NCBI GenBank assembly: GCA_947595045.1
Contig: CANQEN010000006.1
Location: forward strand, 1-35,264
Direction: 5' to 3'
Length of the DNA: 35,264 nucleotides
Origin: an uncultured Bacilli bacterium
GTDB lineage: Bacteria; Bacillota_I; Bacilli_A; RF39; UBA660
Part shown: positions 1 through 6,050 of the stretch, piece by piece
Layout: each line of letters opens with the position of its first letter
How positions within the stretch are numbered: the stretch's first letter is position 1
Position numbers and translations under genes: made by a program
The notes under the pieces: model-generated
Told to the model about the DNA's origin: nothing
Seen by the model: only the letters and a program-made list of their open reading frames with translations
Databases searched by the model: none

Positions 1-1
1 A

Positions 2-166
2 GGCGTGGCGCATCTTCCGAATGTCATCTGCCATGACAGCGGCTATGTGGACGGCAGCTATGCGTACTATGCTGGTGGGGTTCGGCCAGTCATCAATCTA
101 AAATCCAGTGTAAAAGTGACTAATACAGGGAATGGAACTAAAGATACACCATATAAATTAGGGTAA
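2..166 (+). CDS. C-terminal end (5' truncated by window) of DGR target protein; ...GVAHLPNVICHDSGYVDGSYAYYAGGVRPVINLKSSVKVTNTGNGTKDTPYKLG*
   Basis: Open frame from nt 2 to TAA at 164-166. Contains the VR. GGVRPVINLKS...V-GTK-PY-L tail is typical of C-type-lectin/FGE-like DUF6273-type C-termini (recalled, not searched). Confidence 0.8.
   Translation, partial: GVAHLPNVICHDSGYVDGSYAYYAGGVRPVINLKSSVKVTNTGNGTKDTPYKLG
19..89 (+). other. DGR variable region (VR); 3' invariant IMH-like segment ctggtggggttcggccag at 72-89
   Basis: VR 31-89 aligns ungapped to TR 311-369. All 11 mismatches (VR 32,35,39,50,53,54,57,59,65,68,71) lie opposite TR adenines. gaatgtc (19-25) matches TR 305-311 if 6 nt are inserted. 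Confidence 0.93.
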
Positions 167-174
167 AGAAACTT

Positions 175-203
175 GTGCCCTGCGAGAGGAAACTCGCGGG
201 CAC
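175..203 (+). other. Stem-loop downstream of VR (gtgccc-t-gcgag / aggaaa / ctcgcgggcac)
   Basis: 11-bp GC-rich stem with one bulged T and a 6-nt loop; no following U-run, so a simple terminator is unlikely. Confidence 0.75.
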
Positions 204-274
204 TCGATTAATTTTTAAGGTTTAGTAATTACAATATAATATTGTTGTGATTATAGGGTATGTTTGAGAAAGTC

Positions 275-369
275 TCCGAATTTGGACAACGCCAATAATG
301 TGTGGAATGTCAATAACAACGGCTATGTGAACAACAACAATGCGAACAATACTGGTGGGGTTCGGCCAG
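275..369 (+). repeat. DGR template repeat (TR), AAC/AAT-rich
   Basis: tccgaatttggacaacgccaataatgtgtggaatgtcaataacaacggctatgtgaacaacaacaatgcgaacaatactggtggggttcggccag; 59-nt ungapped homology to VR with adenine-only differences. Confidence 0.92.
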
Positions 370-520
370 CCCTTTAAAAATGCAGGTTATTAGGTTGGAT
401 ATAGGGCTTAGTAATTAGAATTATAAAGGACAGAACATATCCTTAGCTAATATAGCTAAAAGTGGAAATACAGATGGTTAAATATACGTATTTGCCTGTA
501 AACTGTATTAATGATTTAAG

Positions 521-559
521 GGCTAGTAAAGACTTAAATGTTTTTACTAGTCTTTTTTT
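521..559 (+). terminator. Rho-independent terminator between TR and accessory genes
   Basis: ctagtaaa (523-530) / tttactag (543-550) stem followed by tcttttttt. Confidence 0.8.
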
Positions 560-578
560 GTAGAAAGGTGTGTGTTGT

Positions 579-959
579 ATGAATAGTAGTATGAAAATAA
601 GAAAGATAGGAAAGTTTTATAATGTATTTGATGATGATTGTTATATATTATATTATTTGTTTGATTATAAGATAAAACAGAATAGAACAGGTTTTCCTAG
701 TAGTGCTTATAATAAGGTAATAAATAAATTAGAAGAACAAATGATTGATTATGAAATAATAGGGGAAGGAATAAAGATAAGTTTTAAAAAGAAAAATAAT
801 TATGATAAGTATGTCGAAAGTGGTAAAGATAAATATGAAAGAAAGTTAAAAAGACAAAATTTAGAAGGACAATTAGAAAAATTAAGTGAACAAGAATTAA
901 AAGAATTATATAAAATAGTAGAGGGTTATATAAGTGCAAGAGAAGTTTATAATAGTTAG
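579..959 (+). CDS. MutS domain I-like small protein, DGR accessory (MSL-like)
   Basis: IRKIGKFYNVFDDDCYILYYLFDYKI...TGFPSSAYNKVINKLEEQMIDYEII resembles MutS domain I (GdFYE-F-DA...P--GvP-h....L...Gy-v-i). RBS aaaggtg 564-570; ATG at 579 preferred over GTG 570. Confidence 0.6.
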   Translation: MNSSMKIRKIGKFYNVFDDDCYILYYLFDYKIKQNRTGFPSSAYNKVINKLEEQMIDYEIIGEGIKISFKKKNNYDKYVESGKDKYERKLKRQNLEGQLEKLSEQELKELYKIVEGYISAREVYNS

Positions 960-1278
960 AGAAATTAAGAAATTTATCAAGTCTATTGAAGAGATGATTA
1001 TTAATTTACCACGGAAAGAACGAGTAATGAAAGATCGATTTATGAATGATACTTTAGATTTATTAGAGATGATATATATAGCTAATCATAATGATATAGA
1101 AAATAGAAAGGAAATCCAAATAAAAATATTAAGTAAAATAGGAATGTTAGATTATTATATAGAAAGAATATATAATAATCATTATATAAGTGAAAGAGTA
1201 TGTTTTGAGAAAACCAATGAACTATTAAAGATAAATAAAATGGTGGTGAAGTGGGTACGTGAAAGTAAAAGTGAATGA
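934..1278 (+). CDS. avd: Avd-like accessory variability determinant (four-helix-bundle, 23S rRNA-IVP-like)
   Basis: Small, highly helical: IKSIEEMIINLPRKERVMKDRFMNDTLDLLEMIYIANHND...NELLKINKMVVKWVRES. Located directly upstream of the RT. Overlaps the previous ORF's stop (GTG start). Confidence 0.65.
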   Translation: MQEKFIIVREIKKFIKSIEEMIINLPRKERVMKDRFMNDTLDLLEMIYIANHNDIENRKEIQIKILSKIGMLDYYIERIYNNHYISERVCFEKTNELLKINKMVVKWVRESKSE

Positions 1279-2368
1279 AATAATAGAAGTATATACTGAT
1301 ATTGCAAAACATATAAGAAATAAAAGGAAAATACATATGTTTGAACGTAATAAAATGCAAAATATATTAATGATTCAGAATTGGTTAGATACAGGATATG
1401 AAGGTGGCTATTATCATATATTTATGATAACAGATCCTAAGTACCGAATAATAATGTCATTAAATATGAATGATAAGATAATAAATCATTATATAACAAA
1501 AAAAGTATTGATACCAAAGTTAGATAAATATTTAGATAAACGAAATGTAGCAACTAGAAAAGGATTAGGAAGTGATTATGGAATAAAACTAATTAAAAGG
1601 TATATAGAAGAACACAAGAAATATGATAAATTTTACATATTAAAAATAGATATATCTAAATATTTTTATAGTATAGATCATGAAGTATTAAAGGGAATGT
1701 TAAGGGAGAGTTTAGATAAAGAAGAAATGGAGATAGTAGAAAAAATAATAGATAGCACAAATAAAAACTATATAAATGAAAGAATTAATAAATTAATAGA
1801 CAAAGAGAAGAAAAGAATAGGTAAAAATGAAAGAATAATAGAAGAGTTAGAAAAAATACCAAGATATTTAAGAGGGAAAGGTTTACCAATAGGAAATATG
1901 ACAAGTCAGTTTTTATCAATTTATTATTTAAATAAATTAGACCATTATATAATACATGATTTACATTTAAAGGCTTATGTGAGATATATGGATGATTTTA
2001 TAATAATAAATAAAGATAGAAAATATTTAGAAGAATGTAAGAAAAAGATAGAAAATAAATTAGAACAAGAATATAAATTAAAAGTGAATAAAAAGAAGAC
2101 CGAAATAAAGAGAAGTAGAGAAGGGTTTGATTTTTTAGGTTATCATTTTAGAGTAAAAGATAATAAAACAATAGTGAAAGTAAGAAAAGAAACGATAAAA
2201 AGAATAAAGAGAAATATCAAAAAAGGTCAGAATGAATATAAAAGAGGATATAGAGATTTATGTTCATATTTTAGTAGTATAAATACGTATTTATATAGTT
2301 TTAAATATGGATCATATAGTAAAAGAAAGAGAATAGTAAATAAATGTATAAGAGATATGAATTTATAA
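1259..2368 (+). CDS. DGR reverse transcriptase
   Basis: RT motifs FYILKIDISKYFYSIDH, GKGLPIGNMTSQFLSIYYLNKLDHYI (GxxxSQ DGR motif), AYVRYMDDFIII, FDFLGYHF; adjacent to the TR/VR pair. Confidence 0.93.
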   Translation: MKVKVNEIIEVYTDIAKHIRNKRKIHMFERNKMQNILMIQNWLDTGYEGGYYHIFMITDPKYRIIMSLNMNDKIINHYITKKVLIPKLDKYLDKRNVATRKGLGSDYGIKLIKRYIEEHKKYDKFYILKIDISKYFYSIDHEVLKGMLRESLDKEEMEIVEKIIDSTNKNYINERINKLIDKEKKRIGKNERIIEELEKIPRYLRGKGLPIGNMTSQFLSIYYLNKLDHYIIHDLHLKAYVRYMDDFIIINKDRKYLEECKKKIENKLEQEYKLKVNKKKTEIKRSREGFDFLGYHFRVKDNKTIVKVRKETIKRIKRNIKKGQNEYKRGYRDLCSYFSSINTYLYSFKYGSYSKRKRIVNKCIRDMNL

Positions 2369-2610
2369 AAAGAATATATAAAAAATATATAATAATATTA
2401 GAAAAAAAGAATAGGTATATAAGTTATGGAATAGATAGAGATATATTAAAATATATGATGTTTGTAGGTGATATAGATATATTAAATAAGTATGAAATAA
2501 ATTATATAATAGTAGATAATTTAGATATAGTAAAACAAGATGAGTTTCAAGTAAATAAATATAATAAATATAAATATATATGTAAATTAATAAAGATATT
2601 GGAAGAGTAA
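2344..2610 (+). CDS. Small ORF downstream of and overlapping the RT; possible divergent MutS-I-like paralogue
   Basis: 88 aa; overlaps RT end by 25 nt. YIIILEKKNRYISYGIDRDILKYMM can be laid over IRKIGKFYNVFDDDCYILYYLF of ORF 579-959. Confidence 0.5.
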   Translation: MYKRYEFIKRIYKKYIIILEKKNRYISYGIDRDILKYMMFVGDIDILNKYEINYIIVDNLDIVKQDEFQVNKYNKYKYICKLIKILEE

Positions 2611-5636: not shown

Positions 5637-5681
5637 TTGCGTAATTTTAATTTTTTTGGTATACTCATCATAGGTGGTAAC

Positions 5682-6050
5682 ATGGATGATAATGGTTTTA
5701 CTTTGATAGAATTGATTGGAGTATTAGTTATTTTAGTTGTTTTATCATTATTGATTAGTCCTGTTGTAGTTAATTTTATTAAAGATAATGAGTCTGATAT
5801 TGAAAAGCATAATATTAGCATGGTAGAAATAGCAGCTCAGAATATGATGACAGATGAAGAATATATTGATTTGTTACCAGATAAAAACGAGAAGTGTTAT
5901 ATTCAGGTAAGTGAAATTAGGAATAATGGTTATTTAGATTATGATTTTACTGACTTTGATGCAGGATATATTATTATAGTATCTAAAGAACACGGCTATT
6001 CTTATGAATATGATAATAGTCGTGGTTCTATTAGCAAATGTACAAGATAA
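5682..6050 (+). CDS. Type IV prepilin-like / pseudopilin protein
   Basis: MDDNGFTLIELIGVLVILVVLSLL N-methylation/cleavage motif; RBS aggtggt. Confidence 0.85.
   Translation: MDDNGFTLIELIGVLVILVVLSLLISPVVVNFIKDNESDIEKHNISMVEIAAQNMMTDEEYIDLLPDKNEKCYIQVSEIRNNGYLDYDFTDFDAGYIIIVSKEHGYSYEYDNSRGSISKCTR

Follow-up and report, generated by a model that had tools for sequence, protein, structure and literature searches.

The window analyzed here, the whole stretch of 35,264 nucleotides, is the entire contig C6 of its own genome (G000; 1.14 Mb in 75 contigs), so that the target gene is truncated at base 1. Its first part carries a diversity-generating retroelement (DGR) cassette in the order target 3' end, template repeat (TR), Sp RNA, terminator hairpin, MSL1, Avd, reverse transcriptase (RT), and MSL2, and next comes a gene that, from reading its sequence, we take to be DNA polymerase III alpha-like. 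The features, including the variable repeat (VR) within the target, are as follows.

2..166 (+): last 54 aa of the target gene, with the 5' part missing beyond the contig end; an open frame homologous to the C-terminus of about 24 other targets of the genome
31..89 (+): VR, the portion fitting the TR with A-only differences, from the alignment
74..89 (+): invariant 3' end of the VR, the probable initiation-of-mutagenic-homing (IMH) end, from sequence, with its role by analogy with BPP-1
266..369 (+): TR, about 100 nt in full, to which VRs on other contigs align; TR copies on contigs C39, C41, C34, and C22
370..521 (+): Sp, a structured spacer RNA 3' of the TR, kept at five of five TR loci in the genome and in relatives, with support from its fold
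522..559 (+): hairpin with T-run, the probable intrinsic terminator of the TR RNA, from fold and sequence
579..959 (+): MSL1, a stand-alone MutS domain I-like accessory, from PF01624 matches of orthologs and an AlphaFold model
934..1278 (+): Avd, a four-helix bundle accessory protein, from phrog_3206, NF033474, and a model
1259..2368 (+): DGR RT (LPIGNMTSQ, YMDD), from phrog_1423, PDB 8ub7, and a tree
2344..2610 (+): MSL2, a shorter paralog of MSL1, from hhalign profile-profile comparison

The RT matches phrog_1423 (7.9e-71), its best sequence match in the PDB is the Bordetella DGR ribonucleoprotein 8ub7 (1.2e-20), and the IGNMTSQ and YMDD motifs reported in a first-pass annotation of this DNA are present in the open reading frame at 1259-2368. 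The PIGxxxSQ pattern is common to this RT and the phage DGR RTs of BalMu-1, Lagaffe, Magia, and BIP-1, and its IGNMTSQ is unlike the PQGGPLSP of two group II RTs. The annotation had called for an RT phylogeny; in a tree of the window RT, four phage DGR RTs, and five group II RTs, the window RT groups with the phage DGR RTs (92/95), apart from the group II RTs (97/98). A group II intron RT is further rejected by a TIGR04416 score of 93 bits against a cut-off of 300 and by the lack of a QGxxxSP motif, and a retron RT, compared by profile only, by a score of 49 against a cut-off of 235 (4.5e-13). A search with the RT found no relative among viral contigs. The genome holds a second RT at C15:7232-7855 on the minus strand (locus L145), which is ruled out as a second DGR RT by its UG26 type (PADLOC RT_UG26, 1.8e-145), a class counted among candidate defence RTs.

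The Avd-like frame recognized in the first-pass annotation is borne out at 934-1278 by profile matches (phrog_3206, 2.7e-12; NF033474, 4.8e-8) and by a structure model (pLDDT 91) that matches Bordetella Avd, 4dwl and 8ub7_B, at TM 0.79-0.88. The MutS-I-like frame listed there is present too, but the clear one precedes Avd (579-959) and a shorter paralog comes after the RT (2344-2610). The window MSL1 itself has no MutS_I match in Pfam; its orthologs at loci L025 (2.6e-10) and L016 (6.4e-5) are over the PF01624 (MutS_I) cut-off. The top PDB matches of the MSL1 AlphaFold model (pLDDT 90) are E. coli MutS and human MutSalpha (E 0.03-0.09), with about 45 residues superposing on MutS structures at 1.1-1.6 A. 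Direct BLAST of MSL2 against MSL1 gave no match, and only profile-profile comparison linked the two (hhalign probability 97%, E 1.6e-11). GxFY is retained in most MSL copies, and the Glu of F-x-E, a MutS motif, is missing in all aligned copies. An ordinary full-length MutS is also encoded in the host genome, and the MutS-I-like proteins may shield the cDNA/target heteroduplex from this MutS of the host's own.

Template and variable repeats

VR 31-89 and TR 311-369 align ungapped over 59 nt at an offset of 280, and the 11 mismatches all stand opposite TR adenines (11/21 at A, 0/38 at other bases; Fisher p 1.3e-6), as the first-pass annotation had it. None of the changes affects a third codon position in the VR frame, again in agreement with that annotation, and VR variation spread over non-A TR sites, which it had named as evidence against a DGR, is absent from this pair. 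The next longest run with mismatches confined to A is 29 nt, or 31 nt in the other direction (offsets 100-2999, first 2.7 kb). The DGR reading is thus supported by A-specific TR/VR differences, a DGR-type RT, the Avd fold, and a VR near the target 3' end. Given the 0/38 non-A differences, it is also plausible from the sequence that the element is active or recently active, as first suggested.

The annotated TR limits, 311-369, are correct for these 59 nt, but the true TR is longer, about 266-369. Because VRs elsewhere in the genome align over that extent, window 1-30 is the 5' part of a VR that does not fit the window TR; only the 3' 59 nt of the window VR fit the TR of about 100 nt. Two origins are conceivable for this 5' part, namely misassembly where the contig ends and an older piece of VR left upstream of a homing junction. 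The latter would agree with the BPP-1 model, in which conversion is 3'-anchored and of variable length. The VR is possibly about two codons longer within window 1-30. At its other end, positions 74-89 are identical to TR 354-369, beyond which the sequences diverge (TC/CC), and by analogy with BPP-1 this stretch is the probable IMH end.

The C-terminal target family is expanded in the genome, with 28 matches to a 114-aa query and 29 to a profile; the TR is counted among these, as are three or four broken pieces, and about 25 are distinct C-termini. Fragments with stops lie at C11:23827-24000, C28:23-259, and C15:180-452 and are probable repertoire pseudogenes. In the window target, the VR ends about 75 nt ahead of the stop and the motif GVRPVINL resembles known targets; in profile searches, no C-lectin profile scored on the target. 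Many target genes are truncated at contig starts, and the prepilin likeness of the family rests on those with a visible N-terminus, which the window target lacks. These start with the prepilin motif PF07963, over the cut-off on C3 (4.7e-8) and slightly below it on C8 (0.0011). The genome also holds PilC-type, prepilin peptidase (PilD), and PilB-like genes on C35, and Tad-like genes adjoin the target and TR of C41, the names PilB-like and Tad-like being our assignment from reading the sequences. Given these genes for pilus assembly and prepilin processing, the targets probably make the variable ends of surface pilus-like proteins. Directly past the DNA polymerase gene, window 5676-6050 encodes a small prepilin-like protein (PF07963, 6.4e-6) without a variable C-terminus.

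Of the 12 VRs that align well to a TR, 10 show an A bias (p < 0.01). Pooled without C6, the VRs of this genome differ at 183 of 369 TR adenines and at 149 of 766 other positions (p 1.4e-24). Counted by VR adenines, the same pool differs at only 39 of 225, which gives the direction as TR to VR, with the TR as template. The VRs on other contigs carry about 19% non-A differences from extant TRs, far above an active pair, and many of them may be old or templated by TRs absent from the assembly. About 10 targets have no TR similarity.

Related genomes

Target families are expanded in five other genomes, G012, G034, G004, G025, and G022. In G012, whose RT is 58% identical to that of the window, about 10 VRs on other contigs can be fitted to the TR of the RT locus, the cleanest with differences at, for example, 16/32 A and 0/68 non-A. 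Pooled over all well-aligned VRs, the G012 counts are 186/317 at A and 40/681 at non-A (p 3.8e-74). A second TR, on C35 of that genome, fits its own adjoining target (17/29 versus 0/71; score 66 versus 26). With near-pure A-specific VRs on many contigs, G012 is an especially clean test case.

In G034, a broken RT with in-frame stops lies on one contig and a TR RNA next to a target on another (C15 and C24; loci L144 and L143), with 36 target matches, and the repertoire may have outlived its RT. G022 has 17 target-family matches and no RT match, so that the family can expand without a detected DGR RT. A search of genome contigs returned a sole RT relative, L045, from a goat omasum Bacilli metagenome-assembled genome. 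At 325-711 of L045, an MSL2-like frame sits between target and TR rather than after the RT.

Dispersed templates and their interpretation

Four further TR-RNA copies, on C39, C41, C34, and C22, lie in the genome without an RT. Those of C39, C41, and C22 are directly 3' of a target gene, and that of C34 breaks off at the contig end. MSL1 remnants accompany the copies on C34, C41, and C39 with no RT beside any of them, and these satellite loci are therefore best read as decayed duplicates of the DGR locus. The Sp segment is 92-97% identical among TR loci and folds with a z of -3.1; 11 pairs have changes on both sides across two genera, mostly in comparison with L045. In this predicted structure, Sp corresponds to the structured TR-proximal RNA expected of a DGR for cDNA priming. 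Rfam gave no match in the first 2.7 kb.

Several VRs fit a remote TR better than a near one. Those next to TR_C41 and TR_C39 fit TR_C6 better than the neighboring TR (44 versus 16 and 30 versus 13), and the VRs of C26, C8, and C60 fit the C41/C39-type TR. A two-template model gains 10-13 log units for the VRs of C69, C57, C52, C8, and C60, against a gain of at most 5.4 among 300 simulated single-template VRs, and these five look mosaic; C8 and C60 are duplicates that share derived bases. An unseen hybrid TR would explain the apparent mosaics equally well.

The host is a tiny gut-type bacterium with a reduced genome, carrying a genuine chromosomal DGR. It is very likely that this DGR is complete and that its machinery serves, as a probable hub, the repertoire of about 25 targets with dispersed TR RNAs. 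The RT-Avd complex would copy the TR RNA, comprising TR, structured Sp, and terminator, into cDNA, making errors where the template has adenine. This mutated cDNA, anchored at the common GGTGGGGTTCGGCCAG end, would then take the place of the 3' end of the sequence for the putatively C-lectin-like C-terminal domain in target genes. The dispersed TR RNAs would come from duplicated DGR loci that lost the RT. More tentatively, and with rather less than an even chance in our view, the RT-less TR RNAs may be working satellites, such that one RT-Avd writes several templates in trans into a pilin-like family, partial homings build mosaic VRs with the 3' part from one TR and the 5' part from another, and the twin MutS-I-like proteins block host repair of the edits. 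Were this so, the system would combine combinatorial with point diversity.

A somewhat less likely possibility is an ordinary cis DGR with a single TR and a single target, the other TR/VR-like loci being decayed duplication relics with no present role. No pair other than that of C6 is free of non-A mismatches, which fits such a history. So does the state of the satellites: the central part of TR_C22 is gone, and a target rewritten from TR_C39 would be thrown out of frame by its 1-nt deletion. Judging by these lesions, at least two of the four are probably dead. In addition, Sp conservation does not exceed that of the flanks at C22 (p 1.0) and C34 (p 0.45). Against it, C41 and C39 do have an Sp that is conserved beyond the level of its flanks (p 9e-10 and 6e-4), and adenines are conserved among the TR copies, which differ from one another chiefly at non-A positions (A 14/113, non-A 64/247; p 0.004), the reverse of the VRs. 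The near-pure A-specific VRs that one TR has on many contigs of G012, and the intact second TR beside its own target there, likewise speak against it.

It is quite improbable that co-assembly of strain variants of a single locus produced the TR copies and the extra VR genes. The assembly is fragmented, with contigs often ending within target genes or TRs and the window itself starting in a VR, as such an origin might produce. It is nonetheless largely refuted by the flanks of the copies, since the TR-bearing contigs have distinct neighbors and nothing in common with the window outside the target-TR-MSL segment; the listed contamination is 1.08%, and in G012 and G034, too, a TR RNA adjoins a target at a distance from the RT. 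An origin of the TR/VR similarity by ordinary gene duplication, with drift in a low-complexity, AAY-rich repeat, has next to no standing: paralogous C-termini do duplicate, as the derived bases of C8 and C60 show, but A-specificity in two genomes, the directionality of the mismatches, a window run far above other offsets, and the presence of RT, Avd, and RNA structure refute it.

Comparison with known systems

In known DGRs, a single TR usually serves no more than a few targets. The present arrangement, in which a reduced genome combines just one DGR RT with several TR RNAs and about 25 candidate targets and of which the window locus is one node, looks like an antigenic-variation or adhesin-repertoire system working by targeted hypermutation. 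It makes testable the trans action of TR RNAs, the choice of the RT among templates, and the function of MutS-like accessories. A literature search on DGRs with prepilins or multiple templates, in which most subscription papers fell outside coverage, did not find this arrangement described. What is new here is the scale of the target repertoire and the multi-template architecture, as remote targets (PMC4891356, PMC7517822), trans action from incomplete loci (PMC10907252), and MSL are already known. DGRs with several TRs were reported in one survey (PMC6642488), and pilin-like similarity of some targets has been mentioned (PMC6199706, PMC6642488).

The MutS domain I-like frame (MutS_I, PF01624) is a known DGR accessory within the cassette, as cited in PMC10053308; the second, shorter MSL paralog, after the RT or, in L045, between target and TR, is a difference. 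In the covered portion of PMC7517822, cyanobacterial DGRs likewise have remote C-lectin paralogs with TR homology, but the targets are mostly cytosolic and satellite TR RNAs are not described. The DGRs of Thiohalocapsa PB-PSB1 (PMC10907252) resemble this system in their many targets and duplicated loci, some without an RT, for which trans action is the best explanation; there, nine DGR loci and 15 conflict-system sensor targets have been duplicated with mobile elements, whereas here there is one DGR RT with prepilin-like targets. The Treponema denticola DGR, in the part of PMC4891356 covered, is also cellular, with a single core locus and, depending on the isolate, 2 to 7 remote targets, but has one TR per genome, compared with several TR copies and about 25 paralogs in 1.14 Mb. 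With the Bordetella phage BPP-1/BIP-1 DGR (mtd-TR-avd-bRT), the window shares A-specific TR-to-VR transfer, an SQ/YMDD-type RT, the Avd fold, and a VR at the target 3' end. It differs in being chromosomal rather than of phage, in joining one DGR RT to several TR loci and many remote targets, in its added MSL proteins, and in having prepilin-like targets in place of a phage tail target.
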